Under the pieces are notes generated by a model. That model ran no database searches, was not told where the DNA came from, and saw only the letters and a list, made by a program, of their open reading frames with translations. Source: Acidobacterium sp. (lineage in GTDB: Bacteria > Acidobacteriota > Terriglobia > Terriglobales > Acidobacteriaceae). From it: a DNA stretch of 48,414 nt. The stretch is taken from contig PMUI01000115.1 of the NCBI GenBank assembly GCA_003166955.1, forward strand, positions 24,266-72,679, in the 5' to 3' direction. Both the position numbers and the translations under genes were made by a program. Below, piece after piece: positions 8,933-47,661 of the stretch (within the stretch, counting starts at the first letter, position 1; every line of letters begins with the position of its first letter).

Positions 8933-8981
8933 GGCTACAGGCTGCCGGCTACAGGTTACCGGCTACAGGCTACAGGCTGCC
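8933..8981 (+). repeat. Heptamer array, seven units
   Basis: Seven consecutive seven-base units: four GGCTACA, two GGCTGCC and one GGTTACC, with no interruptions. The last unit ends one base before the stop codon of the minus-strand DUF481 gene (8982). It sits between a plus-strand pseudogene and that convergent gene. Confidence 0.9.
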
Positions 8982-10184
8982 TCAATACTTCGACTCAAAC
9001 GCGTACGTCAGCCCCATCGTGAACTGGAACGAATTGCGCCTCGTCGGCGGCTCCGTCGACGGCGGATCGTTCAGGTAGCTGTCCATCGTACCCACTGCGA
9101 AACCGAGGCTCTTGTAAGCCGGGAACGCGAACGTGTCCGTCTCCTGCGCCGAGTAAGCGCGCTCATTGTTATAGGCGGGCACAAACTGCAGCTCCTGCGT
9201 CAACGTCACCAGCTTCAGCTTCAGCAGATAATTTGCCGCGAACGTCGACCCAATCAGGTTCTGGTTTCCCGACGATGCCCCGGAGATGAAGCCCTGCTTC
9301 TCGTACTGCATGGTGGCCTTCAAATCGGCTTCCTGCTTCGGCGTCTTCAGCGCCGTCCAGCCCACGCCACCGCCATAGATTTGCTGCAGGTTCAGATCCT
9401 GCCCAAAGTTGTGATCGAACGCCGTCTGGCCCAGGACAAAGAACCGCGGCAAAAAATACTCATCCCGCTCCGCGTCGAAGTGCGAGATCGACGACTTGGT
9501 CACACTGGCCGGTGTGAAAACGCCTCCGCTCGTAAAAGCCGGCTCCGTGATCTTCCCATACGATCCGCTGAAGTCCGCCGACGTCCGGTTCCGTGAATCC
9601 AGCCACTCCACCGTCGGAACCACTCGCACCAGCCCGATACTTCCCGAGACCGAGTACTGATTCTGCGTCGCGCTCACCAGCGTCGCTCCCGCCGTCGCCG
9701 CTCCATTCCATCCGGTAAAGAAACCGGGCTCATGCAGCACCTGCTTGTCCAGCTCCGCCTTGCTCACAATCACCTGCGCGTCCTTTACAGGAATCGGCGC
9801 CGGCGTCGTGCCCTGATTCGCCGGACGCACCGACACCGCGCCATTCGCCACATCAATGGCCCCCGCGGGCAAACCCTCCGCAGCCTTCTTGTCACGCTTC
9901 TTCATCTGCGAGTTCAACACGGCAAAGCTCCCGCCCGCGTGCAGCTCCTTGATCTTGTCCCACGCAATTTTCACGTCGCCCAGCGGATCGCAATGGAACG
10001 TCACCGTCCCACCCGTCTCCTCGACCAGCTTGCCGTGCAGAGTATCGCCGTTGCTCAGCACCAGCGTGTCCGCCGCGGCATCGGCCTTCTTCTCCTCGGC
10101 GGCGCACCGGAAACCCAGCGGAGCAGCGATCAAAATCAACATCACCACAAAAACGAAACGGCCAAAACGGGGGAAGAGACTCAT
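8982..10184 (-). CDS. DUF481 (YdiY-like) outer-membrane protein
   Basis: 400 residues from ATG 10184, which has AGGAGG about ten bases upstream; a frame further upstream is ignored. The N-terminus is a hydrophobic signal (FVFVVMLILIAAPLGF). Next is a small beta domain (DTLVLSNGDTLHGKLVEETGG, then a VKIAWDKIKELH strand). From about residue 180 a run of alternating strands ends in FQFTMGLTYAFESKY, the terminal-aromatic signature of an outer-membrane beta-barrel. This layout matches DUF481/YdiY proteins, sometimes called salt-induced outer-membrane proteins. Its role is unknown. It is divergent from mqnC across 133 bases. Confidence 0.85.
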   Translation of the reverse strand: MSLFPRFGRFVFVVMLILIAAPLGFRCAAEEKKADAAADTLVLSNGDTLHGKLVEETGGTVTFHCDPLGDVKIAWDKIKELHAGGSFAVLNSQMKKRDKKAAEGLPAGAIDVANGAVSVRPANQGTTPAPIPVKDAQVIVSKAELDKQVLHEPGFFTGWNGAATAGATLVSATQNQYSVSGSIGLVRVVPTVEWLDSRNRTSADFSGSYGKITEPAFTSGGVFTPASVTKSSISHFDAERDEYFLPRFFVLGQTAFDHNFGQDLNLQQIYGGGVGWTALKTPKQEADLKATMQYEKQGFISGASSGNQNLIGSTFAANYLLKLKLVTLTQELQFVPAYNNERAYSAQETDTFAFPAYKSLGFAVGTMDSYLNDPPSTEPPTRRNSFQFTMGLTYAFESKY

Positions 10185-10317
10185 CGACCAGGATCCTCCT
10201 GAGAAAATGAAGCTAAAAAGATGAGAGATTGCGTTCTGCAACTCAAGATGCGGCCCACACGCCCTGGCGTTGCAGCCCCGCTGGACGCGCCGCCCGATTT
10301 TCCTCGACAATGAAACT

Positions 10318-11364
10318 ATGCCGATAACCCGTGAACAGGCCCTGGACTACTTCCACTCCGACGACCTCATCGGCCTGGGCATGGAAGCCGACGCCCTCCG
10401 CAAACGTCTGCACCCGGAAGGCGTCGTCACCTACATCATCGACCGCAATATCAACTATACGAATTTCTGCACCGAGTACTGCACCTTCTGCGCCTTCTAT
10501 CGCCCCCTCAAAGGCAAGCAGGCCGCCGAAGGCTACATCCTCGATTTCGAGACCATCTACGCGAAAATCGCCGAGACCCTCGAAATGGGCGGAACCGGCG
10601 TCCTTATGCAGGGGGGCCTGCACCCCGACCTCAAAATCGACTGGTTCGAGCGCCTGCTCCGCGGCATCAAGCAGCGCTTCCCGTCCATCTGGCTGCACTG
10701 CTTCTCCGCTTCAGAAATTCTCGCCATCGCCGAATACAGCGGCCTCTCCGTCCGCGACACCATCATCCGCCTGCGCGACGCCGGCCTCGACTCCATCCCC
10801 GGAGGCGGCGCAGAAATCCTCGACGACGCGGTGCGCCATCGCATCGCCCGCCTCAAATGCGGAACAGAGGACTGGGTCCTCGTCCACCGCACCGCCCATC
10901 AGCTCGGCATGCGTACCACCGCAACGATGATGTTCGGCGTCGACGAAACCCTCGACCAGCGCGTCAACCACTTCGAAGTCATCCGCCGCCTCCAGGAAGA
11001 AACCGGCGGATTCACCGCCTTCATCCCCTGGAGCTTTCAGCCCCACAACACCGCGCTCGGCGGCCGCGGCTGGGACGAGGCCACCGCCGTCGACTACCTC
11101 AAAGTCCTCGCCATCTCCCGCCTCTATCTCGACAACATCGAGAATGTCCAGTCCAGCTGGGTCACCCAGGGCCTTAAGGTCCTCCAGCTCGGCCTCCGCT
11201 TCGGCGGCAACGACGTAGGCTCCGTCATGCTCGAAGAAAACGTCGTCAAAGCCGCCGGCACCTCGAACTGCACCACAGAAGAAGAACTTCGCCGCATCAT
11301 CCGCGACGCAGGCTTCCAACCCCGCCAACGCGACACCCTCTACCGCACCATGTTTCTGAATTGA
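10318..11364 (+). CDS. mqnC: Dehypoxanthine futalosine cyclase (menaquinone, futalosine pathway)
   Basis: 348 residues, normal length. The radical-SAM cluster motif is Cys51-x3-Cys55-x2-Cys58 (FCTEYCTFCAFYR). It is followed by GVLMQGGLHPDLKIDWF, IPGGGAEIL and FIPWSFQPHNT, all characteristic of MqnC rather than of CofH. The enzyme makes cyclic dehypoxanthinyl futalosine from dehypoxanthinyl futalosine, using S-adenosylmethionine and a 4Fe-4S cluster, in the alternative menaquinone route. No other mqn gene lies in this window, so the pathway is scattered. MqnE is the closest alternative, but its motifs differ. Confidence 0.9.
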   Translation: MPITREQALDYFHSDDLIGLGMEADALRKRLHPEGVVTYIIDRNINYTNFCTEYCTFCAFYRPLKGKQAAEGYILDFETIYAKIAETLEMGGTGVLMQGGLHPDLKIDWFERLLRGIKQRFPSIWLHCFSASEILAIAEYSGLSVRDTIIRLRDAGLDSIPGGGAEILDDAVRHRIARLKCGTEDWVLVHRTAHQLGMRTTATMMFGVDETLDQRVNHFEVIRRLQEETGGFTAFIPWSFQPHNTALGGRGWDEATAVDYLKVLAISRLYLDNIENVQSSWVTQGLKVLQLGLRFGGNDVGSVMLEENVVKAAGTSNCTTEEELRRIIRDAGFQPRQRDTLYRTMFLN

Positions 11365-11728
11365 GTGGTGAACCTGGGCATTACACCCCACCCCCCAATC
11401 CTCTCCCGCCCTCACCCCGCCGCAGATACGGCCAGGTTCACCCCACAGCAAGTAGCGAACTCTCTCGCCATTGCCTCGTCAACGCGATTCGGCTGGGTGC
11501 TCGGTCCGAAAGTAACGGCTGGAAACGTCCCCGTTCCATTTTGGAAAAGGCATAGTTCTAACTTCGCGTCATTGCGTTTGTTCCAGCTCTCCTCGCGAAT
11601 CACGTTCGTGAGGGAGAGTTCTTTGGGGAGAGCGGCTGGGTCGAGCTCGGAACTCCGAGCCGCTGCACTTGTTTCCACCAAAAGTGCAATGAGCCTTGCT
11701 CCGACTGAAGCTCCGATATCGCCCGTCT
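11365..11728. other. Intergenic region holding dispersed repeat copy 1
   Basis: This 364-base gap separates mqnC from the mbfA-like gene. It contains the first copy of the dispersed element (11428-11548) and about 180 bases to the right with no gene I can support. An 89-codon minus-strand frame crosses it but shows no homology beyond the repeat itself. Confidence 0.6.
11428..11548 (+). repeat. Dispersed 110-120 bp element, copy 1
   Basis: The left end is ACGGCCAGGTTCACCCCACA and continues GCAAGTAGCG. About 50 divergent bases follow, then GGTCCGAAAGTAAC and a right block CCATTTTGGAAAA. The same block order recurs at 23797, 25657 and 45279, all on the plus strand. This copy is not flanked by the paired hairpins seen around copies 2 and 3. 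Confidence 0.85.
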
Positions 11729-12925
11729 CTACGCGCCCAGGTGTCCGAGCCCAATCCCAATCACGTACGTCGCCACGCCTTCCACCGCACCCACCAGCGT
11801 CATCTCCAAACCACTAGCCCACCACGACCGCACCGTGATCAGGGACTTCGCCGCGCCCACTGCGAAATGCGCAATCAGCGACACAATGGCCGACGCGATC
11901 ACCGCTGGATATCCCGTCATAAAGAAGAACGGCATGATGGGGATGAACGCGCCGACCGCCGTCGACAGCGCGCCCGACCACGCCGACACCAGCGGCTGGC
12001 TCAGCCCCTCCTCGGTCATGTTCAGCCGCTCCGCCGCCAGCGCCCGCGTGAACTGCTCCGGCGACTCGGCCAGATGCCCGACCACGTGATCGGCATCGTC
12101 CAGCGGAATCCCCTTCACCTGGTAGTACAGCGACAAAAGTTCCTGCGCTTCCGGGCCGTTCATTTCGACCGCCTCACGTTCCCGCGTCAGTTCCGCCTCA
12201 TAGATTTCCCGCTCGCTCTTCGCCGCCAGATACGCGCCCGAACCCATCGACAGCGCGCTCGCGATCATCCCCGCCAGCCCCGACAGCAGCACCCACTTGC
12301 TGTTGCCCAGCGTCGCCCCCGATACGCCCGACACGATCCCGAAGATCGCGCCCAGCCCATCATTCACGCCGTAGATCGCGTCGCCGATCCAGCCCGCCGT
12401 CTGCTTCCCCGAAGAATTCCGCCGCGTCAGCAGATCGTCCAGTTCCTTGCGCGCCATCTCCGAGCTCACCGCCATCTTCGGATAGCGGTGCCGGATCAGC
12501 TCGCTCAGCTCGCGATAATGCTCCTGCTCGTCGGCGATCACCTGCTTCAGAATCGCGACGCTCGGCTCGTCTCCCAGCTCCTTCAGCTGCTGCCCGTACC
12601 GCGCAATGTCGCGGCTCTCATCGATCTCCAGCCGCCGCAGCGCCATCTGCGGCCCGCCCAGCCGGTTCACCAGCGTGTCCGCGTCGCCCGTCGCCTTGCC
12701 GTCGTACTTCGGCAGCTCCGCGCCCAGCTCGCGAATCCGCTTCGCCCACAGCGCCGCGTGTTGCGCCTCCGCCTCCGCTATGTGCCGCAGCGTCTTGCTG
12801 CGGACAGCATCGTCGTCGCGCTCTGCCAGCGTGTTGTACGTGTGGAAGCCGCGCATCTCCGCCTGCCAGTTCTCGTTTAGCGCCTCCAGCACCTTCTGCT
12901 CTTTTTGCGACACACTCTGCGCCAT
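11729..12925 (-). CDS. mbfA: MbfA-like membrane ferritin: ferritin-like domain fused to VIT1/CCC1 transporter
   Basis: 398 residues. Residues about 1-150 form a ferritin/rubrerythrin-like four-helix bundle with repeated Glu/His metal positions (WQAEMRGFHTYN, AEAEAQHAALW, DEQEHYRELSE). From about 175 a VIT1/CCC1 transporter begins with GWIGDAIYGVNDGLGAIFG, continues through SMGSGAYLAAKSERE and ends in several hydrophobic helices. This is the MbfA (Erv1-Vit1) architecture. In rhizobia that protein exports iron, with the ferritin domain sensing or feeding metal. A DtxR/MntR-type regulator lies about 4.6 kb away on the same strand and is a natural candidate controller, but the adjacency is not direct. 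Confidence 0.9.
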   Translation of the reverse strand: MAQSVSQKEQKVLEALNENWQAEMRGFHTYNTLAERDDDAVRSKTLRHIAEAEAQHAALWAKRIRELGAELPKYDGKATGDADTLVNRLGGPQMALRRLEIDESRDIARYGQQLKELGDEPSVAILKQVIADEQEHYRELSELIRHRYPKMAVSSEMARKELDDLLTRRNSSGKQTAGWIGDAIYGVNDGLGAIFGIVSGVSGATLGNSKWVLLSGLAGMIASALSMGSGAYLAAKSEREIYEAELTREREAVEMNGPEAQELLSLYYQVKGIPLDDADHVVGHLAESPEQFTRALAAERLNMTEEGLSQPLVSAWSGALSTAVGAFIPIMPFFFMTGYPAVIASAIVSLIAHFAVGAAKSLITVRSWWASGLEMTLVGAVEGVATYVIGIGLGHLGA

Positions 12926-12931
12926 GCTTTG

Positions 12932-13480
12932 CTAGCTCCCAATCTGATAGCTAAACCCGAACCTCCCAATCTGAATCGCGGATCGCTCCGCCGGCGGCCA
13001 AATGCGAAACGCCTCCACCCGCGTTACCCCTGCCAGCAGCCCCGCCGCAACGCTGCCCACCGGCTTTCCTGTCGCCGCTTCATAAAAATGCACCAATAAC
13101 ACATTATTCTCGGTGTGCTCGTACCCCAGCACGTACTCGCCTGGCGCCAGCCGTGTGTCCGTTCCCAGCTTCAACGAAACCTGCGTGAGAAAAAAGTGCG
13201 AGTACTTGCCCTCCGCCGAATAACCCGCCGTGATCAGCACTACGCCCGCAATGTATTTCCCGTGTCCATTCGTGATCCCGGAAGCCGACCGCATCTCCGT
13301 CTCGATCCGCTCCCGCACTACCGGAGCCCGCGCCGGAATCACAGACCGCAACTCAGCTTCATTCGCCACCCGCCACTCCGCAGCCCGCGTCTCCTGCGCC
13401 CATCCACAGAGCGCGAGCCCCAACGTCAGACAGCCCGCAACCACCCAACCGCGAAACCGGTTCTCGCCCAGGCACATCAT
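12932..13480 (-). CDS. Exported hypothetical protein
   Basis: 182 residues; ATG 13480 and 13477 are both possible starts. A signal peptide is present (GWVVAGCLTLGLALCGWAQ), with cleavage probably after the Ala-Gln. The mature protein has strands such as YIAGVVLITAGYSAEGKYS and EYVLGYEHTENNVLLVHFYEA, suggesting a small beta-rich periplasmic protein. I do not recognise a family. It lies six bases before mbfA on the same strand, so the two are probably co-transcribed. A heptamer array separates it from the response-regulator gene upstream. Confidence 0.75.
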   Translation of the reverse strand: MMCLGENRFRGWVVAGCLTLGLALCGWAQETRAAEWRVANEAELRSVIPARAPVVRERIETEMRSASGITNGHGKYIAGVVLITAGYSAEGKYSHFFLTQVSLKLGTDTRLAPGEYVLGYEHTENNVLLVHFYEAATGKPVGSVAAGLLAGVTRVEAFRIWPPAERSAIQIGRFGFSYQIGS

Positions 13481-13482
13481 CG

Positions 13483-13510
13483 CTAATCCCTAACCCCTAA
13501 ACCCTAATCC
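13483..13510 (+). repeat. Heptamer array, four units
   Basis: Units CTAATCC (twice), CTAACCC and CTAAACC in direct succession, with a degenerate CTGCTTC after them. It fills nearly all of the gap between the start of the exported hypothetical gene (13480) and the stop of the response regulator (13518). Confidence 0.85.
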
Positions 13511-13517
13511 CTGCTTC

Positions 13518-14144: not shown

Positions 14145-14146
14145 AG

Positions 14147-25866: not shown

Positions 25867-25871
25867 CACAA

Positions 25872-25907
25872 AGGCCGCACAGCATATGCCGTGCGGCCTC
25901 CGTTTTC
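25872..25907 (+). terminator. Rho-independent terminator downstream of msrA
   Basis: A nine-base perfect stem AGGCCGCAC/GTGCGGCCT around a ten-base loop is followed by CCGTTTTCC. It faces the plus strand and could stop read-through from msrA and composite repeat 2 into the convergent DUF4252 gene. Confidence 0.65.
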
Positions 25908-25956
25908 CTAAACTCCAAACTCTAAACTCCAAACTCTCTCCTGTTGCCTATTGCCT
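25908..25956 (+). repeat. Heptamer array, seven units, overlapping the DUF4252 gene end
   Basis: CTAAACT and CCAAACT alternate twice, then CTCTCCT, GTTGCCT and ATTGCCT. The last unit contains the stop codon (25948-25950) and final codons of the minus-strand DUF4252 gene, so the array has grown into or out of the coding end. Confidence 0.88.
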
Positions 25957-26436
25957 GCCTTCGAGGTCTCCGCCAAACCTAGGAATCCCAAAATGTCCGC
26001 GCAGATGCAGCAGATCCGTTGCGCTGATCATCCCATCAATCACGATCAGGTTCACGTTCCGCTCATTCGCTACCAGCACCACCATCCCATCGAAGTTCGC
26101 GTGATCCATCCGCACCCAAACATCGGTCCGCGTCGGATCGAACGGCTTCACCGGTGCCGCCGGGTCATACATCCCCGCCGCCGAGTATCGGAACTGATGC
26201 ACCGTAATGCTGCGCAGCTTCGCAATGATCGGCTTATCCTCGTCCGGCATGATCTGGCTCGCCGCCCGCAGCATCGACTCATCAAACTTCAGATCGGTGT
26301 GCAGCGTCGCCGACGCCGCCAGCGCATCCATCCCCCGCGGCGTAGGCGGACCCTCCTGCGCCCGCATCATCGATGTCGAAAAGGCAGCGCCCAACAGAAC
26401 GGTGGACGCAAGAATTGCGAAGCTTCGGTGCGACAT
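25948..26436 (-). CDS. DUF4252-like exported protein
   Basis: 162 residues from ATG 26436 (MSHRSFAILASTVLLGAAFS), a signal peptide. The mature part has LRAASQIMPDEDKPIIAKLRSITVHQF and VWVRMDHANFDGMVVLVA. It ends in LIVIDGMISATDLLHLRGHFGIP, which matches the usual end of DUF4252 proteins. These are small envelope proteins of unknown function found in Bacteroidota and Acidobacteriota. The final residues are encoded by heptamer-repeat DNA. Confidence 0.75.
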   Translation of the reverse strand: MSHRSFAILASTVLLGAAFSTSMMRAQEGPPTPRGMDALAASATLHTDLKFDESMLRAASQIMPDEDKPIIAKLRSITVHQFRYSAAGMYDPAAPVKPFDPTRTDVWVRMDHANFDGMVVLVANERNVNLIVIDGMISATDLLHLRGHFGIPRFGGDLEGRQ

Positions 26437-26550: not shown

Positions 26551-26571
26551 CTACTCCCTATTGCCTGCTCC
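26551..26571 (+). repeat. Heptamer array, three units
   Basis: Units CTACTCC, CTATTGC and CTGCTCC, with a partial CTGCAGT after them running up to the stop codon of the aminopeptidase gene at 26578. It shares the 11-mer CCTATTGCCTG with the array at 25908-25956. Confidence 0.7.
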
Positions 26572-26577
26572 CTGCAG

Positions 26578-27852
26578 TTACACCCACTCCCCGCCGCGCA
26601 TCACCGGCTCCGCCCCACCCGACGCCGAAATTCCATCCACATCCATCTTCCCCGACCCAATCATCCAGTCCACATGAATCAGGCTGTCGTTCGCGCCCTT
26701 GCCGGCAAGTTCCTCCGGCGTCAGTTTGTCGCCGTTCTTCACGCAACTTGAGTAGGCCTGCCCCAGCGCAATATGGCACGCGGCATTCTCATCGAACAGC
26801 GTGTTCAGAAACAGCATCCCGCTCGCCGAAATCGGCGACGAGTTCGGCACCAGCGACACCTCGCCCAGCCGCCGCGCCCCCTCATCCGTGTCGATCAGCC
26901 GCTGCAGCACATGCTCGCCCTTCGCCGCATGCGCCTCCACAATCTTCCCGCCCTCAAACCGCACCGCGATCTCCTCAATCAGCGTCCCTTGGTGCGACAA
27001 CGGCTTCGTGCTCTTCACCGTCCCATCCACGCGATCCTTGTGCGGCGTCGTGAACACCTCTTCGGTCGGCATATTCGGAATGCAGTAGTGTCCGTTTCCT
27101 GCCGTCGTCCCGCCGCCCAGCCACAGATGTTCGTCCGCCAGCCCCACCTTCAAATCTGTCCCCGGACCCTTGAAGTGCAACGCCGCATACCGCCGCTCGT
27201 TCATCCGATTCGCCCACTTGTGCAGTTTGCTGTCGTGCGTCTTCCACGCCGCCACCGGATCGGCCAGGTCCGCGCGGCTCGCCGCAAAAATCGCATCCCA
27301 CAATTTCCCCAGAGCCTCGTCCGCCGGCAATCCCGGAAACACCGCCGCCGCCCACGCCGGCGTCGCCGCCGACACAATCGTCCAGTTAATGTCGTGCCGC
27401 GTGATCAGCTCCAGCGCCGGCCGGTACGCCTTCGACATGGCGCGATTCGCCCGGCTCACCTTCTCCGGATCCTCCTTCGACAGCAGCGATGGATTCCCGC
27501 CCGTGATCGCCAGCCGCGCCGCCCCACTCTTGTACGCCGTCGCCATGCCCTCGTAGAGCCACGCCGCCGCCGTATCAAAGCTCGCGTCCGCGCCGTACCT
27601 GTAGCGCAATAGCTGCGCCTCCTCATCGGTGAACAGAATCGTCACCAGCGAAGCGCCAGCCTTGTACGCATGTTTCGAGATCAGCCGCGCCAGCGGCATC
27701 GCATCCGTGCTGGCCGTCATCACCAGCTCCTGCCCGGGCGCAAGCCCAAGGCCGCACTGGATCGCGACCTCAGCCAGCCGGTCGAGTTTCGTTTCAAAAT
27801 CCTTAGTCGTCGTCGGAGTTTCCGCAATCGCAGTAGCGCTCATGATTCCCAT
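26578..27852 (-). CDS. M29-family aminopeptidase (AmpS/aminopeptidase T-like)
   Basis: 424 residues from ATG 27852 (ATG 27843 is an alternative). M29 features include PGQELVMTASTDAMPLAR near the start, ITGGNPSLLS, GGGTTAGNGHYCIPNMPTEEVFTTP in the middle, and a metal-binding C-terminal part with NENAACH-like (FDENAACHIALGQAYSS) and DSLIHVDWMIGSGKMDVDG. The enzyme is a cytoplasmic two-metal aminopeptidase with broad specificity. It begins two bases after the prmC stop on the same strand, so translation is probably coupled. Confidence 0.92.
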   Translation of the reverse strand: MGIMSATAIAETPTTTKDFETKLDRLAEVAIQCGLGLAPGQELVMTASTDAMPLARLISKHAYKAGASLVTILFTDEEAQLLRYRYGADASFDTAAAWLYEGMATAYKSGAARLAITGGNPSLLSKEDPEKVSRANRAMSKAYRPALELITRHDINWTIVSAATPAWAAAVFPGLPADEALGKLWDAIFAASRADLADPVAAWKTHDSKLHKWANRMNERRYAALHFKGPGTDLKVGLADEHLWLGGGTTAGNGHYCIPNMPTEEVFTTPHKDRVDGTVKSTKPLSHQGTLIEEIAVRFEGGKIVEAHAAKGEHVLQRLIDTDEGARRLGEVSLVPNSSPISASGMLFLNTLFDENAACHIALGQAYSSCVKNGDKLTPEELAGKGANDSLIHVDWMIGSGKMDVDGISASGGAEPVMRGGEWV

Positions 27853-29875: not shown

Positions 29876-29896
29876 CTATTCCCTATTCCCTATTCC
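29876..29896 (+). repeat. Heptamer array, three units
   Basis: CTATTCC three times, then CTGAACT reaching the prfA stop codon at 29903. It lies just downstream of prfA, between it and brnT. Confidence 0.85.
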
Positions 29897-29902
29897 CTGA
29901 AC

Positions 29903-31987: not shown

Positions 31988-32050
31988 CTCAACGCTGATC
32001 CCTGAAACGCCGATCACATTACGCTGTACGCTGATCGCTGAACGCTGCTC
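31988..32050 (+). repeat. Heptamer array, nine units, ending two bases before the ligase ATG
   Basis: Nine seven-base units: CTCAACG, CTGATCC, CTGAAAC, two degenerate units, then GCTGTAC, GCTGATC, GCTGAAC and GCTGCTC. The last unit ends at 32050 and the ligase ATG is at 32053. There is therefore no room for a normal ribosome-binding site; the array itself occupies that position. Confidence 0.88.
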
Positions 32051-32052: not shown

Positions 32053-34062
32053 ATGCCCCTCTTTCAATCCTTCGCCGAACTCAACGACGCACTCGCCGCC
32101 ACCACCAAAAAGCTCGAAAAGCGCGCCTTCATCGCCGACTACCTTCGCGCCCTTCCCATCGAAGACGCCGGACGCGCCGCCCTCTGGCTCTCCGGAACCC
32201 CCTTCGCAGAAACCGACCGCCGCGTCCTCAATATCGGCGGTTCACTCCTCAGCAAAGCCGTAGCCGAGCTCTCCGGTGCCACCTCTGAAGCCATGTCCGC
32301 CGCCTACCGCCGCCACGGCGACTTCGGCGCCGCCGCCGCCGACCTCCTTTATGGCCACGCGCCGACAACCGCGACTCTCACCCTCGCCGACATCGAAACC
32401 GCGCTCGCCGCCCTCGCCGAAGCCCGCGGCCCCGTCCCCAAACTCCGCCTCCTCCTCGATCTCCTCCGCCGCGCCACCCCCGACGAAACGAAGTACCTCA
32501 TCAAGCTCGTCACCGGCGACATGCGCACCGGAGTCAAGCAATTCCTCGTCGAAGAAGCCATCGCCGAAGCCTGGCCGCTTCAGAGCGCTATCCCAGCAGA
32601 ACTGCAGAAGTCCGCCCCCGCGGCAACGCCTGCGGCGGTGTTGAAGAGTGCGCCTGCGGCGGGTTTGGAGTCAGTCCGTCGCGCAACCATGTTCACCGGC
32701 TCGCTCCCCGAAGTCGTAGCCCTCGCCGCCGCCGGCACCCTCGACCACGCGCGCATGAAGCTCTTCCACCCCATCGGCTTCATGCTCGCCAGCCCCGTCC
32801 AAACCACCGCCGAAGCCATTGCCCGCTTCACCGAAGAAATCAAAGCGGAACTCGGCCCGGCCGCAAATGCGTCGGAAACAGAAAACTCCGTCATCCTGAG
32901 CGAAGCTTCCGAATCGTTGCGCCCGCTTTTGGAGCGCAACAAACAATCCAGCCGCGAGTCGAATGGACCTGCATTTCGCTCTTCGGTCTTGAAAGCCGCC
33001 CAACTCGAAGACAAATACGACGGCATCCGAGCCCAGCTCCACGTGGCCCCGGTCGAGTCAGGCCAGGCCCGAGTAGCCCTCTACTCCCGCAATCGCGACG
33101 ACCTCTCCGAATCCTTCCCCGACCTCGTCGAAGCCTTCTCCCCCATCACCGAACCCGCGATCCTCGACGGCGAAATCCTCGCCTGGAATCCCGCCGCCCA
33201 CCGCGCCCTCTCCTTCTCCGCCCTCCAGCAACGCCTCGGCCGCAAACGCGTCACGCAGGAAATGCTCCGCGACATCCCCGTCGTCCTCGTCGTCTTCGAC
33301 ATCCTCTACCGCGGCGAAACTCTCCTCCTGAACGAACCCCTCATCGAACGCCGCGCGACCCTCGAAGACTTCGCCGCCCGCTGGTCCCCCGCGACCGCCT
33401 CAACACAAGCCCGAGGCCAATCCCACCTCTTCGAAGCCCAACAAGACCCAAGCTTTCCACGCCTCATCCTCGCCAATGCCACGCGCCTCGAGACACCCCG
33501 CCTTTCCGCGTCCGCTCAACTAGACCAGGCCTACCTCGACGCCCGAGCCCGCGGCAACGAAGGCGTCATGATCAAGTCCCTCGCCAGCACCTACCAGCCC
33601 GGCCGCCGCGGCCTCGCCTGGCTCAAGCTCAAGCGCGAACTCGCAACCTTAGATGTAGTCGTCACGGGCGTCGAATACGGCAATGGCCGCCGCGCCCACG
33701 TACTCAGTGACTACACCTTCGCCATTAGCGATCCCGACGACCCGGCCCAGCCGCTAAAAAACGTAGGCAAAGCCTACTCCGGCCTCACCGATCAGGAAAT
33801 CGCCGACATGACCGCCTTCTTCAAAGCGCACACCCTCGAAGACAACGGCCACTTCCGCACCGTCGAGCCAACCATCGTCCTCGAAGTCGCCTTCAACAAC
33901 GTCATGCGCTCCACCCGCCACGCCAGCGGATTCGCCCTCCGCTTCCCAAGAATCCTTCGCATCCGCACCGACAAACCCGTCAACGAAATTGACACCCTCC
34001 AGCGCGTCGAAGAAATCTACAACTCCCAACCCGACAAACCCATCGATGACCCTGAACCCTGA
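32053..34062 (+). CDS. ATP-dependent DNA ligase with in-frame insertions
   Basis: 669 residues. The N-terminal helical DNA-binding domain includes LLLDLLRRATPDETKYLIKLVTGDMRTG. The adenylation domain has the catalytic lysine Lys321 in EDKYDGIRA, DGEILAWN, EGVMIKSL and WLKLKRE. A C-terminal OB domain follows. It seals nicks using ATP. Two stretches look inserted: residues about 182-207 (Ala/Pro-rich, internally repeated) and about 280-311 (VILSEASESLRPLLERN onward), the latter ending nine residues before the catalytic lysine. The last codons and stop lie in a heptamer array. The start has no Shine-Dalgarno sequence because another array precedes it. Confidence 0.92.
   Translation: MPLFQSFAELNDALAATTKKLEKRAFIADYLRALPIEDAGRAALWLSGTPFAETDRRVLNIGGSLLSKAVAELSGATSEAMSAAYRRHGDFGAAAADLLYGHAPTTATLTLADIETALAALAEARGPVPKLRLLLDLLRRATPDETKYLIKLVTGDMRTGVKQFLVEEAIAEAWPLQSAIPAELQKSAPAATPAAVLKSAPAAGLESVRRATMFTGSLPEVVALAAAGTLDHARMKLFHPIGFMLASPVQTTAEAIARFTEEIKAELGPAANASETENSVILSEASESLRPLLERNKQSSRESNGPAFRSSVLKAAQLEDKYDGIRAQLHVAPVESGQARVALYSRNRDDLSESFPDLVEAFSPITEPAILDGEILAWNPAAHRALSFSALQQRLGRKRVTQEMLRDIPVVLVVFDILYRGETLLLNEPLIERRATLEDFAARWSPATASTQARGQSHLFEAQQDPSFPRLILANATRLETPRLSASAQLDQAYLDARARGNEGVMIKSLASTYQPGRRGLAWLKLKRELATLDVVVTGVEYGNGRRAHVLSDYTFAISDPDDPAQPLKNVGKAYSGLTDQEIADMTAFFKAHTLEDNGHFRTVEPTIVLEVAFNNVMRSTRHASGFALRFPRILRIRTDKPVNEIDTLQRVEEIYNSQPDKPIDDPEP
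32890..32983 (+). repeat. Repeat-like insertion in the ligase gene
   Basis: Begins GTCATCCTGAGCGAAGC and ends GAGTCGAATGGACCTGCATT followed by TCGCTCTT. Both ends match the phrase type of common dispersed intergenic repeats in Acidobacteriota and other bacteria as I remember them. Here it is translated in frame. No second copy is present in this window, so the call rests on memory of the phrase and on its position as a gap in the family alignment. Confidence 0.55.
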
Positions 34063-34112
34063 ACGCTGTACCCTGAACGCGGTACTCTGCACCCTGTGCC
34101 CTGTCTTCTGAA
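34050..34112 (+). repeat. Heptamer array, nine units, overlapping the ligase stop codon
   Basis: CCCTGAA three times, mixed with CGCTGTA, CGCGGTA, CTCTGCA, CCCTGTG, CCCTGTC and TTCTGAA, without interruption. The ligase stop codon (34060-34062) is inside the second unit. It shares the ten-mer CTGAACGCTG with the array before the ligase. Confidence 0.88.
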
Positions 34113-39026: not shown

Positions 39027-39047
39027 CAGCTCCCAGCTCCCAGCTGA
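39027..39047 (+). repeat. Heptamer array, three units, starting directly after a stop codon
   Basis: CAGCTCC twice and CAGCTGA; the first unit begins on the base after the methyltransferase stop codon (39024-39026). It shares the 17-mer GCTCCCAGCTCCCAGCT with the array at 40078. Confidence 0.75.
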
Positions 39048-40077: not shown

Positions 40078-40147
40078 GGCTCCAGGCTCCCAGCTCCCAG
40101 CTCCCGTCTGACCTTGCACCCTGTACCCTGTACCCTGCACCCTTTAG
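40078..40147 (+). repeat. Heptamer array, ten units, filling the meaB-mce gap
   Basis: Starts with GGCTCCA, GGCTCCC and AGCTCCC units, then changes to CCTGTAC-type units (GTCTGAC, CTTGCAC, CCTGTAC twice, CCTGCAC, CCTTTAG). It ends two bases before the mce ATG at 40150. The switch of unit type within one array suggests two arrays joined or local re-spreading. No normal ribosome-binding site is left in front of mce. Confidence 0.9.
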
Positions 40148-40616: not shown

Positions 40617-40658
40617 CCTGTAACCTGTAACCCGTAACCCGTAACCTGTAACCTGTTC
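40617..40658 (+). repeat. Heptamer array, six units, before tsaB
   Basis: CCTGTAA three times, CCCGTAA twice and CCTGTTC; it ends one base before the TTG start of tsaB (40660). The left edge is 60 bases after the mce stop. Confidence 0.88.
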
Positions 40659-41882: not shown

Positions 41883-42001
41883 ATGTCAGGCTTCCTCGGT
41901 GCTAGCGTGGTACGTCTCACTTTGTAAGTGAGCCAATTCGCCCGGCGAACCACGATAGCCGCGGCTCTGCCGGGGATGATCCCGCACCGGAGGAGTCGTC
42001 T

Positions 42002-42220: not shown

Positions 42221-42514
42221 CAGTTCGTTCGCGCTCCACCATCCCATCTCCCTTCGCGACGCAGCGCCAGCGCCTCACGGTGAGTGTCTGCTCCACTTCC
42301 GTAATCGATTCTCATCGAAACCGCAGCCTCCGCCCCTTTCTGTTTCACTGTTCCCGCCATAGAATGGGTAAGACTTTCGGACGAAGGGTCCAGTTGTGCT
42401 GCGCGGCCGGTTTCCGTCCTCCTTATCTCCTTGGGATTTCCTCCAGGCTCGACCGCAAAGCGCCAAACTGCTCTGGCCAGCGCGTCCAAAGGTCTTCGTT
42501 GTCCGATCTTTATC
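42221..42514. other. Intergenic region upstream of psd
   Basis: This 294-base gap has no supported gene. A TAGAAT hexamer (42360-42365) with a TTTCTG 17 bases upstream (42337-42342) is a weak promoter candidate for psd. No repeat of the families described elsewhere occurs here. Confidence 0.4.
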
Positions 42515-43183: not shown

Positions 43184-44091
43184 CCGGCGAATCTCAGCCT
43201 TTCCTCCGTCCCCCCGGCTCCTCCGGATTCCGCGGCCACCCCGCGCAGCCTCGCCGCCGCCCCCGCGGCATGTACCTCCTGCCCTCCATGTTCACCGCCG
43301 TGAACATCGCCGCCGGCTTCTTCGCCATCACCGAGAGCCTCGAAGGCTCCGCCGGCCAGCCCCACCACTTCGACTATGCCGCGATCGCCATTGGCCTCGC
43401 CATCCCCTTCGACGCCCTCGACGGCCGCATCGCACGCCTCACCAATACCGAAAGCGAATTCGGCCGTGAGCTCGACTCCCTCGCCGACGTCATCACCTTC
43501 GGCGTAGCGCCCAGCATCCTCGCCTACACCTGGGGTTTCCGCTCCCTGCCCTTGTCCATGTCCCACGACCTGCGCGTCAGGCTCATTCAGTTCGGCGCCT
43601 TCGTCTGCTTCCTTTTCCTCCTCTGCGGCGCCAGCCGTCTGGCCCGCTTCAACATCAGCGTCAACCCCGTCCCGAAAAACCCCGGCCGCCCGGGCCGCAA
43701 ATACTTTGTCGGGATGCCGATCCCGGCCGCTGCCGGCCTTGTTGTCGCCGTGGTTCACGGCTTCAGCGGAGCGTTCGACCGGCCCATCTTCACCTGGTGG
43801 CTGGCCATCATCTGGGGCCTCCTCGTCGGCTTCATCGGCTTCCTCATGGTCAGCACCTGGCGCTTCTGGAGCGGCAAGGAGATCAACCTCACAGTCCGCC
43901 AGCCCTTTCGCTGGATCGTCTTCCTCGGCATCAGCATCTATCTGCTCGTCTTCTTCTCGCGCGAAGTCCTGTTTGTCCTCGCCCTCGTCTATATGTTTTC
44001 CGGCGTCATCGCGCGCCTCGCCTACTCCTGGCGTCGTCACCATCAACCCGCCCGGAACCCATTGCCTCCGTCTCAGGGCCCCATCGGATGA
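43180..44091 (+). CDS. pssA: CDP-diacylglycerol-serine O-phosphatidyltransferase
   Basis: 303 residues from TTG 43180. The CDP-alcohol phosphotransferase signature DG-x2-AR-x8-G-x3-D-x3-D is exact in [20 protein letters not shown] plus LAD. Several membrane helices follow. The N-terminal 30 residues are basic and Pro-rich. It makes phosphatidylserine from CDP-diacylglycerol and serine, feeding psd. It overlaps the following asd-like gene by four bases. Confidence 0.93.
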
Positions 44092-45158
44092 CTGATCCAC
44101 AGAAGATCGCTATCGTCGGCGCCGCTTCCCTGCGTGGCAAGGAACTCAACGACGCGCTCGCTGACTCTCCCTTTGCCGAATCCGACTTCCTCCTCATGGA
44201 TGACGAATCCGAGCTCGGCAGCCTCGAAGCCGTCGGCGATGAGGTCACCTTCATTCAGCGCATCGACCCCACCTCCTTCCGCCACGTGGACTTCGCCTTC
44301 TTTGCCGGCGAGCAGCCGCTCACCCTCAAACACTGGGAAAACGCCAACAAAGCCGGAGCCAGCATCGTCGACCTCTCCTACGCCCTCGAAGGCAAGCCCG
44401 GCGTCCTGGTTCGCGCGCCGTGGGTCGAAGGCGAGCTCCCGCCCATCCCCGCCCTGCCCAGCCCCGACGCTCCCCGCCCCGATGCCCCCGGCCTCGAAAC
44501 CCCCGCTATCGTCCCCGCGCATCCCGTCGCGGTCGCGCTCGTCATCCTTCTCGGCCGCGTCGCGCAGTCCACGCCGATTCGCATCGCCTCGGCCACCGTC
44601 CTCGAGCCCGCCTCCGAATACGGCCGCGCCGCCCTCGACGAGCTTCACCAGCAAACCGTCAAGCTGCTCAGTTTCCAGGAACTCCCGCGTCAGGTCTACG
44701 ACACCCAGGTCGCCTTCAACACCACGCCGTCCTTCGGCGACTCAGCAAAGTTCTCCCTCGCTGCCAGCGAATCCCGCATCCGCCGTCACTTCGCGCTGCT
44801 CTCCGCCGGCCGCCTCCCCGACGTCGGCGTGCAGCTCCTCCACGCCCCCGTCTTTCATGGCTACGGAATTTCCCTCTCCATGGAACTCGCCGCGCCCACT
44901 TCGCTCGATCAGATGGAAGCCTCGCTCGCCGGGGAGCACGTCGAGATTGTCACCGCGGAATCCGACCCGCCCACCAACCTCACCGTCGCCGGCCAGGGGG
45001 ACATCCTTGTCCGCGTCCGCCCCCACAACACAAAAGAGGCAGAGAGCACCCGCTTCTGGATCTGGGCCGGCCTCGACAATCTCCGCTTCGCCACCATCAA
45101 CGCCCTCGCCTGCGCCCTCGAGCTCAAGCGCCTCCGCCCCTCCGGCAAAGTCCAGTAG
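44088..45158 (+). CDS. Aspartate-semialdehyde-dehydrogenase-like protein lacking the catalytic cysteine
   Basis: 356 residues from ATG 44088; the frame is open upstream but the ATG overlapping the pssA stop fits. The N-terminal nucleotide fold has KIAIVGAASLRGKELNDAL, and FAFFAGEQPLTLKHWENANKAGASIVDLS corresponds to the ASADH region. Where active enzymes have NPNCST, this protein reads VPAHPVAVALVI, so the nucleophilic Cys is missing. The later PVFHGYGISLSMEL matches the C-terminal substrate-side motif only partly. It resembles the USG-1 type of non-catalytic paralogue. Its position directly after psd-pssA is suggestive but gives no function. Confidence 0.85.
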   Translation: MTDPQKIAIVGAASLRGKELNDALADSPFAESDFLLMDDESELGSLEAVGDEVTFIQRIDPTSFRHVDFAFFAGEQPLTLKHWENANKAGASIVDLSYALEGKPGVLVRAPWVEGELPPIPALPSPDAPRPDAPGLETPAIVPAHPVAVALVILLGRVAQSTPIRIASATVLEPASEYGRAALDELHQQTVKLLSFQELPRQVYDTQVAFNTTPSFGDSAKFSLAASESRIRRHFALLSAGRLPDVGVQLLHAPVFHGYGISLSMELAAPTSLDQMEASLAGEHVEIVTAESDPPTNLTVAGQGDILVRVRPHNTKEAESTRFWIWAGLDNLRFATINALACALELKRLRPSGKVQ

Positions 45159-45497
45159 CGACAACCTCGCGGAAACAACCAATGCCGCCCGAGGACCCGG
45201 GGCAGCTCCTCATCCGCCGCCGATCTGGGCAGATCCTCATCGACACCCTCAGCCCCCGAGCCACCCCCAACAACTGAAACGGCCAGGTTCACCCCACAGC
45301 AAGTAGCGGACTCCTCTGCCACCGGATCGTCAATGGAATTGATTCGGCTGTTCAGTCCGAAAGTACTGTCCGGACCAATTTGAAACTGAGACCTTCTTGG
45401 AAAACCAGTCTCACCTCCGCCCACTGGCCCGGTCCGCAAGACCCCCGAGCCACCGGCGGACCGCCTTCCCGCCGCCTTTCCCCCTCTTCCCCACTCC
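45159..45497. other. Intergenic region holding dispersed repeat copy 4
   Basis: This 339-base gap lies between the asd-like gene and the convergent exported hydrolase. It holds dispersed element copy 4 (45279-45387). About 110 bases on each side show nothing I can name. Confidence 0.6.
45279..45387 (+). repeat. Dispersed 110-120 bp element, copy 4
   Basis: The left block ACGGCCAGGTTCACCCCACA is identical to copies 1 and 2. GCAAGTAGCGGACTC and a GGATCGTCAA segment similar to copy 1 follow, then GTCCGAAAGTACTGTCC and a degraded right block CCAATTTGAAAC. Copies 1 and 4 form one subgroup, 2 and 3 another. Confidence 0.85.
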
Positions 45498-46442
45498 TCA
45501 CCGCACCGGGTAGCAGTCCAGGTCATTCGAAAGCGCAAGCGGTCCGCCGTAATGCAGCCGAATCTCCTCCCGCGTCTGGTTCTCCTTCTCCGACCCCAGC
45601 GTCCTCAGCATGCGATGAGACAGCACCAGCTGCCGCACATGAGCGTTCGCCGCAGTCACCCCAATCACCGAAGGCGGCATATGCAGGCGTCTTTCCACCC
45701 CCGTAGCTCCCTCCGGCACTGCGTTATGAGCGACAAATAGATCCGCATTCAATGCCAGTTGTGTCAGACCATCCCCATCGCCGTTCGTATCTCCGCTGAA
45801 CACGATCCGCTTGCCGCCCATCTGCACGCGCCATGCCAGCGCGGGAAACGCCCCATGTATCACCCGCACCGCATACAGCGCCATGTCGCCGTTGCGCAAA
45901 ACAACCAAAGGCGTTGAGCCGGCCACCACATCATGCGGCTGCAGTTTGTAGCTGTCGGTCTGCCCCGGATCCACCATCTCGCTCAGGTAGCGCCACGCCC
46001 CGTGCGGATCGCTGAACAGGTCATGCACAAACTCCGTCGTCGACGGCATGTACTCATTCCCCGGCGGCCCATACACTGGCAGGGGACGCGTGCGATTTCC
46101 AAACCACGAAGAAAATACCAAAGCAGGAAAATCGCCGCTGTGGTCGATATGAAAGTGACTGAACAGCATTACATCCACATCGGACATCTGTGCTCCGCTC
46201 TCGCCAAACCGGAGCGCGCTGCCTCCGCCCGCATCCACGATTACGCGCGCATGTCCGTTATCCCAGATCAAATAGCTGCTCGACGCCCGCTTATCCTTCA
46301 ACTCCGGCCCGCCCGAGCCGAGCACCTGCACCGCCAGTCCTGTTGAACCGCATGCCTGCGCCCACACCAGCGAGGCGCCGCACACAGCGAGAAGCGCCAC
46401 AAGAATCGCCGTAGTTTTTGCCCCTGATCTCGGCCAGCGCAT
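45498..46442 (-). CDS. Exported metallo-beta-lactamase-fold hydrolase
   Basis: 314 residues. A signal peptide (TTAILVALLAVCGASLVWAQA) leads to a beta-strand VQVLGSGGPE. The zinc motif is FSHFHIDHSGDFPAL, with further ligands in IVFSGDTNGDGD and LVLSHRM. The layout is of the ribonuclease-Z/AtsA-like branch, but the signal peptide makes an RNA role unlikely. The substrate is unknown. It ends near the dispersed repeat; the LacI-type regulator gene ends 60 bases upstream. Confidence 0.88.
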   Translation of the reverse strand: MRWPRSGAKTTAILVALLAVCGASLVWAQACGSTGLAVQVLGSGGPELKDKRASSSYLIWDNGHARVIVDAGGGSALRFGESGAQMSDVDVMLFSHFHIDHSGDFPALVFSSWFGNRTRPLPVYGPPGNEYMPSTTEFVHDLFSDPHGAWRYLSEMVDPGQTDSYKLQPHDVVAGSTPLVVLRNGDMALYAVRVIHGAFPALAWRVQMGGKRIVFSGDTNGDGDGLTQLALNADLFVAHNAVPEGATGVERRLHMPPSVIGVTAANAHVRQLVLSHRMLRTLGSEKENQTREEIRLHYGGPLALSNDLDCYPVR

Positions 46443-46501
46443 CTTGCAACCTCCGATCCGAGCTCTTCCCGCCTGGGCCCCGTCTCATCGGCCGGTCGCG
46501 C

Positions 46502-47539
46502 TCACGCCCTCACCAGCCCGGCGTCCTCCCGCATTTTCCCTGTCGTATCCCGCGGCACTCGTCCCGTCGAACTCCGCAGCACCAGCGAAGTCGGCACACC
46601 GTACTCCGCGCCCTTGCTGCCTTCCTGCCGGATCCCGTACAGCGCCCGGAACGCCACCCGCGCAATCTCATCGCGCGACAGCCGCACCGTGGTCAGCGCC
46701 GGCTGCGTAAACGCGCTGATCTGGATATCGTCGAAGCCCACAATCGAGATGTCCTCCGGCACCCTCAATCCGCTCTCGTGGATCGCTCCCAGCGCCCCGA
46801 TCGCCGTCATGTCGTTCGAGGCCAGCACCGCTGTCGGCCGCGTCTTCCGGCTCAACAGCCGCTCCATCGCCCCGTGCCCGCCATCCACCTGGTGATTGCC
46901 CTCCTCCATCAACCCCGCCCCAATCCCTCTGCGCTCCAGGCACGCCACAAACGCCTCCCTCCGCACCCGCGCCGATCGCAGCATCATCGGCCCTGAGATG
47001 AACGCTATCTCCGTGTGCCCCAGCCCCACAATATGCTCCACCGCTGCGTCCACTCCCGATGCGTAATCCACCACGATGTTGCTCGTCAGCTTCTGCGCCG
47101 TCCCCGTATCCAGAAACACCAGCGGAATATCCCGATCCTGAAATTCCGTTATCAGCCTCGGATCCATCTCCGACGTCATGATCGCCACGCCGTCCACCTT
47201 GCGCTGCAGCATCCGGCTCACGCACTGCTCCATGCGTGCCGGATCGTAGTTCGTGTTCGCCACCAGCACTTCCTGGCCGTTCTGCACCGCAATATCTTCG
47301 AAGCTCTTCACCAGCTCCGGGAAAAACGGATTCGTGATGTCGGAGATGATTAGCCCGTACAGCCTGCTGCGCCCCGATCCCAGCGCCCGCGCCCACGTGT
47401 TCGGATAAAACTTCAGCTCCTCGATCGCCCGCTGCACACGCTCCTTCGTCTCCGGCGTCACCTTGTCCGACCCGTTGATCGTCCGCGACACCGTTGCCGT
47501 CGAGACCTTCGCCAACCGCGCCACTTCCCTGATGTTCAT
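46502..47539 (-). CDS. LacI-family transcriptional regulator
   Basis: 345 residues from ATG 47539; the frame reaches 47617 but MNIREVARLAKVSTATVSRTING is the canonical helix-turn-helix start. The hinge helix lies around FYPNTWARALGS. The periplasmic-binding-like sensor domain includes IISDITNPFFPELVKSFEDIA, VFLDTG, AVLASNDMTAIGALGA and SIVGFDDIQISAFTQPALTTVR. Such proteins bind a sugar or its derivative and release DNA. It is divergent from the glycoside hydrolase gene across 124 bases, the likely target, and may also repress itself. Confidence 0.95.
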   Translation of the reverse strand: MNIREVARLAKVSTATVSRTINGSDKVTPETKERVQRAIEELKFYPNTWARALGSGRSRLYGLIISDITNPFFPELVKSFEDIAVQNGQEVLVANTNYDPARMEQCVSRMLQRKVDGVAIMTSEMDPRLITEFQDRDIPLVFLDTGTAQKLTSNIVVDYASGVDAAVEHIVGLGHTEIAFISGPMMLRSARVRREAFVACLERRGIGAGLMEEGNHQVDGGHGAMERLLSRKTRPTAVLASNDMTAIGALGAIHESGLRVPEDISIVGFDDIQISAFTQPALTTVRLSRDEIARVAFRALYGIRQEGSKGAEYGVPTSLVLRSSTGRVPRDTTGKMREDAGLVRA

Positions 47540-47597
47540 AAAGCGTGCCTGACCCGTTATATTCGATCTGCTCCGACTTAGGAAGGTGATTGTCCGT

Positions 47598-47605
47598 AAG
47601 CGTTT
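47598..47605 (+). promoter_or_regulatory. Candidate LacI-type operator half
   Basis: AAGCGTTT fits the AANCGNTT core that many LacI-family operators share. It is in the divergent region between the regulator and the glycoside hydrolase. The surrounding bases GTAAGCGTTTTCG are only partly symmetric, so this is a weak call. Confidence 0.4.
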
Positions 47606-47633
47606 TCGCCAAAACACGCCAATCGCCCCTCCC

Positions 47634-47661
47634 GCTACTGGCTACCGGCTGCTCGCTGTTA
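47634..47661 (+). repeat. Heptamer array, four units, before the glycoside hydrolase
   Basis: GCTACTG, GCTACCG, GCTGCTC and GCTGTTA; it ends two bases before the ATG at 47664. GCTGCTC is shared with the array before the DNA ligase. The start codon therefore has no normal ribosome-binding site. Confidence 0.78.

Follow-up and report, generated by a model that had tools for sequence, protein, structure and literature searches.

The window, by which we mean the whole stretch of 48,414 nt analysed here, belongs to the draft assembly (5.41 Mb) of a soil Acidobacterium sp. Its genes, called with a codon-usage script that fixes stops more reliably than starts, are accompanied by arrays of head-to-tail heptamers, lying beside gene ends, in gaps and, in one case, inside a gene. 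The features are as follows (the unit given on the G-rich strand where so marked).

3189..5162, minus strand: dnaX (clamp-loader tau/gamma), the gene that contains the coding array (Pfam)
3931..3968, minus strand: heptamer array CCGGGCA/CCGGGCT (G strand) inside dnaX, in the linker after domain III, on the sense strand (TRF; lag-7 score 21; Pfam)
8927..8978, plus strand: heptamer array GCTACCG/GCTACAG, with the stop codon of a minus-strand DUF481 gene 3 nt away; orientation ambiguous (TRF; ortholog comparison)
13479..13512, minus strand: heptamer array TAGGGAT (G strand), 5 nt past the stop of a response-regulator gene (TRF)
25908..25962, minus strand: heptamer array TGGAGTT/TAGAGTT, then CAGGCAA/TAGGCAA units, adjoining a plus-strand hairpin and T-run (TRF)
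26551..26577, minus strand: degenerate heptamer run CAGGGAG CAGGCAA TAGGGAG, adjoining the stop end of an M29 peptidase gene (26578-27852, minus strand) (profile score 16.2; Pfam)
29876..29898, minus strand: heptamer array TAGGGAA, 4 nt past the stop of a peptide-chain-release-factor gene (PCRF/RF-1 domains) (TRF)
31988..32047, minus strand: heptamer array CAGCGTA/CAGCGTT, clear over 32020-32047, lying 5 nt upstream of the start of an ATP-dependent DNA ligase gene
34049..34103, minus strand: heptamer array CAGGGTT, providing the final codons of the ligase gene and its stop (TRF)
39027..39045, minus strand: heptamer array CTGGGAG, immediately past the stop of a methyltransferase gene (TRF)
40078..40105, minus strand: heptamer array CCGGGAG, in the gap between meaB and a glyoxalase-family gene (TRF)
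40111..40143, minus strand: heptamer array CAGGGTA, in the same gap, adjoining the start of the glyoxalase-family gene (lag-7 self-match)
40617..40656, minus strand: heptamer array CAGGTTA, 3 nt upstream of the start of a TsaD-domain (TsaB-like) gene (TRF)
47634..47650, no strand assigned: claimed array, not above chance (profile score 5.4, lag-7 score 7)

An earlier note on this DNA had claimed twelve arrays with one shared period of seven bases, and the period is confirmed. Self-matching of the window at lag 7 gave 8 segments with a score of at least 13 and 11 with at least 11, against none at either threshold for periods 4, 5, 6, 8, 10, 11 and 13; period 9 gave one segment at a score of at least 11 and none at 13 or more. 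At a score of at least 13 there was one segment each for periods 12, 15, 16, 21 and 28, and the five found for period 14 all fell within period-7 arrays. Ten of the twelve claimed arrays were recovered with lag-7 scores of at least 11, and the run at 26551, which has no lag-7 segment of score 6 or more, by a profile built without the window sequence (16.2, against a maximum of 8.7 in 600 shuffled 90-mers); the array at 47634 was lost, as neither this profile nor self-matching places it above chance. The number of units, put at about 70, is nearer 65 as estimated from array extents, and the long words said to be shared do exist (17 bases between 39027 and 40078; CCTATTGCCTG between 25908 and 26551).

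The same period dominates a genome sample of 976 kb out of the 5.41 Mb, where the other periods that stand out are multiples of seven and steps of 6, 9 and 12, mostly genic. Within it, 53 stretches not picked for repeats (788 kb) contained 40 period-7 segments with a score of at least 13, none at periods 5, 8, 10 or 11, one at period 13, 6, 3 and 7 at periods 6, 9 and 12, respectively, and 23 at period 14; over the full sample the period-6 and period-12 segments are mostly coding. In 361 kb of intergenic DNA there were 49 period-7 segments, against a mean of 0.5 in 20 shuffles. In this intergenic test, period 15 was represented by 13 segments with a score of at least 10. Across the genome the motif (YAGGGNN)x3 was counted 145 times and its reversed control 5 times; with YAGGG spaced in steps of 6 or 8 the count was 0. 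The repeats thus behave like long simple sequence repeats (LSSR), with seven-base tandem units beyond chance and no excess of other non-triplet periods, and the unique spacers that separate CRISPR-type repeats are absent, since the units lie head to tail.

Spelling does vary from array to array, as had been claimed, but the units are not independent sequences. The 106 arrays align to a single loose frame, about Y-A-G-G-G-W-R on the G strand, with a fit of 3.41 against 2.16 ± 0.06 for 20 column permutations (20 starts for the real data, 6 for each permutation), and 24 of the 49 consensus unit types connect to one another by single substitutions (null mean 2.4, maximum 5). The earlier note had read the constant period as a mechanism that counts seven and not as copies of one sequence. 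The intrinsic, genome-wide step is upheld by the motif counts, by the translated dnaX arrays and by period 7 in other genera of the family (both described below); the strong form, unrelated heptamers counted off by a machine, is rejected for this genome because of the common frame. Identical heptamer words recur at many loci and are also found in a genome of another, distant family (G056). A quadruplex as common denominator was rejected too, a G3 quadruplex motif being present in only 20 of the 106 arrays.

Order within the arrays is also informative. When every unit was required to fit the profile by itself, neighbouring units were more alike than distant ones, a modest gradient once edge effects had been removed. 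In runs of five (n = 47) the differences rose from 1.72 between neighbours to 2.49 at a separation of four (statistic 0.44, against a maximum of 0.35 in 500 order shuffles), and in runs of six (n = 21) from 1.69 to 2.38 (0.47; shuffle maximum 0.48, SD 0.12), with no clear order effect in runs of four (n = 88; 0.17, SD 0.12). A less strict version gave a rise from 2.17 to 3.50, inflated by poor units at the run ends, and the gradient on arrays detected by lag 7 was set aside because that detector favours alike neighbours. There are also composite arrays, as in L024, in which one unit passes into another in phase.

The array at 3931..3968 is not intergenic but lies within dnaX, in a translated linker; in this gene the Pfam DnaX domains reach residue 392. 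The linker carries period-7 coding arrays, with differing units, in 9 of 11 members of the genus (of the 12 genomes, G011, with a split match, was left out). The same genes before residue 380 yielded no period-7 segment in 11,775 nt; a longer control of 12,100 nt gave one, having extended into the linker of one of them (L297). The step of seven therefore persists in translated sequence, although one would expect a multiple of three there. Judging from the reading frames, a change in unit number here would put translation out of frame and bring it to a stop 51 or 112 nt past the array.

Outside genes the arrays have a polarity, the G-rich strand tending to begin just past a stop codon. In this genome and two others, the closer of the two neighbouring genes is the one lying 5' of the G strand for 55 of 81, 27 of 32 and 31 of 45 arrays (25 of the 106 arrays of the first genome have no usable neighbour pair), with median distances past the stop codon of 7.5, 6 and 1 nt, respectively. 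In the first genome the polarity is clear for GGG units (30/40) and not clear for the others (25/41). Moreover, local GC skew favours the G-rich strand in 90 of 102 arrays, compared to 66% of random intergenic pieces; in G056 the figure is only 31 of 51. Gene orientation is ruled out as the origin of this bias, since genes divide 360 to 359 between the two strands relative to the local skew. Neither avoidance of divergent gaps (11/81 arrays, against 114/524; p 0.10) nor an excess in convergent ones (p 0.12) was significant. Both array edges are enriched in AAA on the G strand (23 and 17 of 106, against 8.4%), and inspection revealed an extended left edge common to several arrays (stop codon, AAGG/AAGC and CAGGG); apart from a few bases the flanks showed no shared sequence. 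A link to the dispersed GAAGGACCT / CATCCTGAGC repeat, which adjoins the array at 40617, was rejected, as 2 of the 106 arrays show it and the rate at randomly chosen intergenic places is 1.5%.

At the matching sites of sister species, arrays recur in 18 of 57 cases, mostly with other units, compared to 16 of 127 gene-edge flanks (p 0.0036), and the recurrence holds across separate assemblies. The counts exclude the genome itself, weak or partial orthologues (L209, L210, L222, L233, L234 and L246), L150 (G001) at gap sites, and any two genes that differ in strand or are separated by over 700 nt; the three gaps without arrays that served as controls were short and unmatched in length. In these 18 arrays the G strand is sense in 7 of 8 past stops and antisense in all 10 before starts, a few by small margins. 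One stretch (L014, listed also as L149) has a sub-threshold array of opposite sense in the meaB gap (meaB|VOC). In other genera of the family, period 7 appears with other spellings in 5 of 6 stretches, and the YAGGG triple is absent from 17 of 25 genomes, some of which have differently spelled heptamers.

The STRR repeats of heterocystous cyanobacteria, taken as the nearest analogue in the earlier note, are tandem heptamers and, by description, resemble the arrays in having more than one spelling. However, the GGGAATC and GGGGA(C/T)T repeats of Xanthomonas and Nostoc (Rehm et al. 2015, PMC4692102, which also mentions three heptamers for Calothrix) are closer. They are described as genome-wide, mostly intergenic, with about four copies, and, in relatives, retained at the same gene pairs at varying length and with varying sequence; our arrays share the seven-base units, the distribution and the placement rule, the G strand near the gene on its 5' side and sense past stops, weakly for units without GGG (25/41). 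Unlike that nearly fixed, quadruplex-capable G3/G4 unit, there are 49 consensus types here and few G3 motifs, and the xanthomonad repeats are described as having no leading/lagging preference, in contrast to the skew-linked arrays of this genome. An excess of seven-base units is also common to the long simple sequence repeats of 5-11 nt, heptamers being the commonest (Mrazek 2007, cited in PMC4679880 and PMC4692102), for which slippage with a polymerase-set step of seven has been proposed; unit turnover at orthologous sites, found here, receives no mention in the portions of that literature considered. The TAACTGA repeats of Beggiatoaceae (MacGregor 2015, PMC4679880), intergenic heptamer direct repeats patchy across phyla, are different, being a single fixed heptamer, mostly just before starts, with related heptamers rare; TAACTGA is absent from our 49 consensus units. 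In a survey from 2014 (PMC4060949, Table 2), 7-base repeats have a normal median in 4 acidobacterial genera, and a literature search provided, among the matches listed, no description of such repeats in Acidobacteria.

That the step stays constant while the spelling varies suggests an error of copying whose step of seven is built in. The reading we favour, at roughly 58%, is that the arrays are heptanucleotide repeats which local tandem duplication creates and renews, replication slippage by one seven-base unit being its simplest form, and that they survive where the sequence is expendable. A replicating strand would slip by one unit, the copies would drift by point mutation and further slippage would homogenise them, so that the unit would change but not the seven-base register nor, in this genus, the loose frame; the arrays could persist immediately beyond gene ends and in linkers of proteins, that of dnaX among them. 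We count in favour of slippage the excess of period-7 segments, the order gradient, the in-phase composites, the connected cloud of units, the dnaX arrays, the excess at orthologous sites and the missing link to a dispersed repeat, although polymerase slippage as the duplication step, and a reason for the step of seven, are inferred. Slippage alone fails to explain the polarity, or why identical words turn up at many loci as well as in a distant family, and the smaller gradient under the stricter requirement weighs slightly against it.

These recurrent words would fit a less probable alternative, in which arrays are seeded or replaced from other arrays through ectopic recombination or a small mobile element and the shared vocabulary moves; the common left edge, the AAA at both edges and the change of units between species agree with such copying. 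Nevertheless, the flanks share only a few bases, gradients and composites in phase fit stepwise drift, and the one dispersed repeat tested, of the GAAGGACCT type, shows no association. It is rather unlikely that the repeats act in the message or the DNA, as G-quadruplexes or as sites for ribosomes or an RNA-binding protein past stops, with selection holding strand and position. The placement rule in three genomes, as for Xanthomonas and Nostoc (PMC4692102), the short distances past stops and the sense of the orthologous arrays would suit such a role, but the scarcity of G3 motifs, the interchangeable units at a site, the many genomes of other genera without the YAGGG triple (some with other heptamers) and the tolerance of arrays within translated dnaX speak against it. 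Chance, low-complexity noise or assembly error, for which the draft state of the assembly and the failed array at 47634 could be cited, is refuted by the counts against shuffles, and arrays recur in separate assemblies.

With local duplication by slippage as the preferred origin, the start of the G strand past stops may, at a guess, reflect putative RNA-DNA hybrids that form at the point where ribosomes come off the message, the non-template DNA being G-rich there. More speculative still, and improbable in our judgement, a strand-directed process with a register of seven might keep writing heptamers, of any spelling, at the ends of translation or of protein domains, and the dnaX array might be a heritable two-form switch operated by slippage. 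If so, gain or loss of one unit would cause a frameshift and a shortened, gamma-like clamp-loader subunit.

Heptamer repeats are already known in bacteria; here they occur in a new group, with turnover of units and a coding case. The finding bears on why heptamers dominate long bacterial repeats, because letters that vary over a constant step, even in a gene where three would be safer, allow a mutational cause to be separated from selection on the sequence. It also extends the placement rule of Xanthomonas and Nostoc to another phylum, without a fixed quadruplex unit, and the genus supplies many arrays as sites for a direct test of seven-base stepping.

The genome that holds the window is a 5.41-Mb draft in 142 contigs, and by its MeaB protein it lies near "Acidobacterium sp." palsa_123 (86% identity) and palsa_291 (84%), both Acidobacteriaceae genomes from metagenomes. 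Scoring self-match at an offset of seven (lag-7 score), we found eight segments of score ≥13 in the window. At this score, periods 4, 5, 6, 8, 9, 10, 11, and 13 gave none, periods 12, 15, 16, 21, and 28 one each, and period 14 five, all within period-7 arrays. Ten of the twelve arrays named in the earlier note reach a lag-7 score of at least 11, and the array at 26551 stands above chance by a profile built from units outside the window (16.2 versus a shuffled maximum of 8.7); the one claimed at 47634 fails the test. A sample of the same genome (61 stretches, 976 kb including the window, seven of them picked for carrying CTAATCCCTAATCC) contained 54 intergenic and 11 coding period-7 segments of score ≥13. 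The 53 stretches that were neither the window nor picked for CTAATCCCTAATCC held 40 period-7 segments versus none at periods 5, 8, 10, and 11, one at 13, three at 9, six at 6, and seven at 12. At the lower score of ≥10, 13 intergenic segments of period 15 were also seen in a sample of this genome. Across the whole genome, YAGGGNN three times in tandem occurs 145 times versus 5 for the reversed pattern (overlapping matches inside one array are scored separately), and the YAGGG motif at a step of 6 or 8 does not occur.

The spelling of the heptamers does vary between arrays, as had been claimed, but the spellings are not independent. When 106 arrays were column-aligned, with orientation not preset, a common frame appeared on the G-rich strand: C/T, mostly A, G (0.90), G (0.78), G (0.61), A/T, and A/G. 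Independence of the letters is contradicted by the fit of this frame (3.41 per array versus 2.16 ± 0.06 in 20 permutations of the columns) and by single substitutions, which join 24 of the 49 consensus types into one component (mean 2.4 and maximum 5 with permuted letters). Within arrays, adjacent units are closer in sequence than those far apart. A first order-neutral test (58 runs) gave 2.17 versus 3.50 differences, values inflated by run ends, and the effect was smaller in a stricter test in which each unit must fit the profile on its own. There, in runs of five (n = 47), neighbors differ by 1.72 and units at a separation of four by 2.49, with a gradient statistic of 0.44 versus a maximum of 0.35 in 500 shuffles; in runs of six (n = 21), differences go from 1.69 to 2.38 (statistic 0.47, shuffle maximum 0.48), and runs of four (n = 88) showed no clear order effect. 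In one array of a relative (L024), the unit changes in phase from CTGAACG via CTGTCCG and then CTATCCG to CTAACCC. Both the order gradient and this in-phase passage are consistent with repeated local duplication plus mutation.

The arrays are also placed with polarity. For 55 of the 81 arrays located in gaps with both neighboring genes known, the nearer gene is the one at the 5' side of the G-rich strand (G strand) (P = 0.0017). Within 10 nt of a gene there were 31 arrays on this side versus 12 on the other, while random placement in the same gaps gives a mean of 12.5 and a maximum of 22 on the 5' side. Sense arrays after a stop codon lie at a median distance of 7.5 nt. The polarity was found in a congener, G006 (27/32; 21 versus 2 within 10 nt), and in G056, from another family of the class (31/45; 19 versus 3), the YAGGG pattern having picked 14 of the 20 G006 stretches and all 20 from G056. 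Pooled over the three genomes, it holds for 70 of 90 arrays on the stop side and 43 of 68 on the start side; units without GGG (own genome) show little polarity (25/41). Local GC skew favors the G-richer strand in 90 of 102 arrays, versus 66% of random intergenic pieces, and genes are split 360 to 359 relative to this skew; arrays are so oriented in 28/32 cases in G006 and in only 31/51 in G056. YAGGG arrays often open with a stop codon, AAGG or AAGC, and CAGGG, and close with TAG and AAAA. Within 8 nt of the array edge on the G strand, AAA is found at the 3' side in 23 and at the 5' side in 17 of 106 arrays, and TTT in 2 and 7, respectively. At 25870 to 25907, a hairpin and T-run that look by eye like a terminator abut the start of an array. 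Another stretch, L123 (4622 to 4703), has a pair of arrays in inverted order flanking a center of ca. 32 bases, resembling the inverted pairs reported in Xanthomonas.

Of the 12 genomes examined from the genus, 11 have the tandem YAGGG triple at least 10 times (G003 has 2). Among 25 genomes from other genera of the family, it was absent from 17 and found at least five times in 6, one of which (G019) has a nearly equal control (45 versus 38), and 3 of 24 genomes from other families reach five. High motif counts were seen in G056, G017, and G025 (other genera and families); in four further members of G025's genus, the count is 0 or 1. Genomes without the YAGGG type need not lack heptamers, since stretches of other genera carry other spellings: one stretch from each of six other family genera (115 kb) gave six period-7 segments, in five of the six stretches, spelled TTTCAAG, CATTCAG, GACGAAT, and similar. 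Ten named loci of other Acidobacteriaceae held one segment. Arrays with other units were noted in L152 to L156 (other genera of the family; e.g., TTTCAAG, GACGAAT) and, in distant groups, in L046 (Anaerolineae), L051, L053, L060, and L066 (e.g., CACGCAT, AAAGAGC, CAGGACT). At eight array sites of the window, the orthologous places in other species carry an array in 18 of 57 cases, versus 16 of 127 flanks of gene edges in those genomes (odds ratio, 3.2; P = 0.0036), a background of one flank per gap that includes some of the orthologous sites themselves. Three gaps array-free in the window had none in relatives (0/18), these gaps being short and not length-matched. Units differ from one species to another: the one following the release-factor stop codon is AGGGAAT in the window, CAGGTTA in G006, CGGATAG in G005, and TACGGTT in G004. 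The G strand is sense in 7 of 8 orthologous arrays after stop codons and antisense in all 10 before starts, a few by small margins.

Among described systems, the closest is found in Xanthomonas and Nostoc, which carry G-rich heptamers (Rehm et al. 2015, PMC4692102). Placement is the same in those genera and here, but the unit is not fixed here, and the arrays have a GC-skew strand bias, of which Rehm et al. found none in the xanthomonads. A G3 quadruplex motif was present in 20 of 106 arrays. In Mrazek and Huang 2014 (PMC4060949), four acidobacterial genera have a normal median for seven-base repeats. No report of such repeats in Acidobacteria was among the matches listed in a literature search, in which subscription journals are thinly covered.

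Arrays are also found within genes. Well inside called genes, 11 of 16 are in sense (976-kb sample), and in the ligase gene (32053 to 34062), an array supplies the last codons (D-P-E-P) and the stop, at 34049 to 34062. Another array is in dnaX:

3931 to 3968, dnaX sense strand: heptamer array just after domain III (the Pfam match ends at residue 392).

In the window and stretches L287 to L297, a period-7 segment occupies this linker in nine of the 11 genus members whose match is continuous, with units that differ between species (CAGGGAA, CAGGGTA, CAGAGCA, CAGAGCG, and CCGGGCA, among others); before residue 380, the same 11 genes have none in 11,775 nt. Because seven bases do not make up whole codons, one unit gained or lost shifts the frame. 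In the two shifted frames, a stop follows 51 and 112 nt past the array, and the gene frame continues for 740 nt. The dnaX product has a long tau and a short gamma form, through frameshifting in Escherichia coli and, in Thermus, through transcriptional slippage. The dnaX arrays might possibly serve as a switch of frame that gives a long or a short form of the clamp loader.

The arrays are best read as heptanucleotide repeats that would arise by slippage during replication or by an equivalent step of local duplication. Their copies would drift and then become homogeneous again, and gene edges and linkers may be where such arrays are tolerated. For repeats of this kind, contact of the polymerase with about seven bases has been proposed (Mrazek 2007, as cited in PMC4679880 and PMC4692102). 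We infer the reasons both for the step of seven and for the G strand starting after stop codons. Most likely, the step stems from the generating process and not from use of the sequence, because selection within a gene should favor steps of three, yet the step in dnaX is seven. The dnaX coding case bears on whether the seven-base step is mutational or derives from sequence use.
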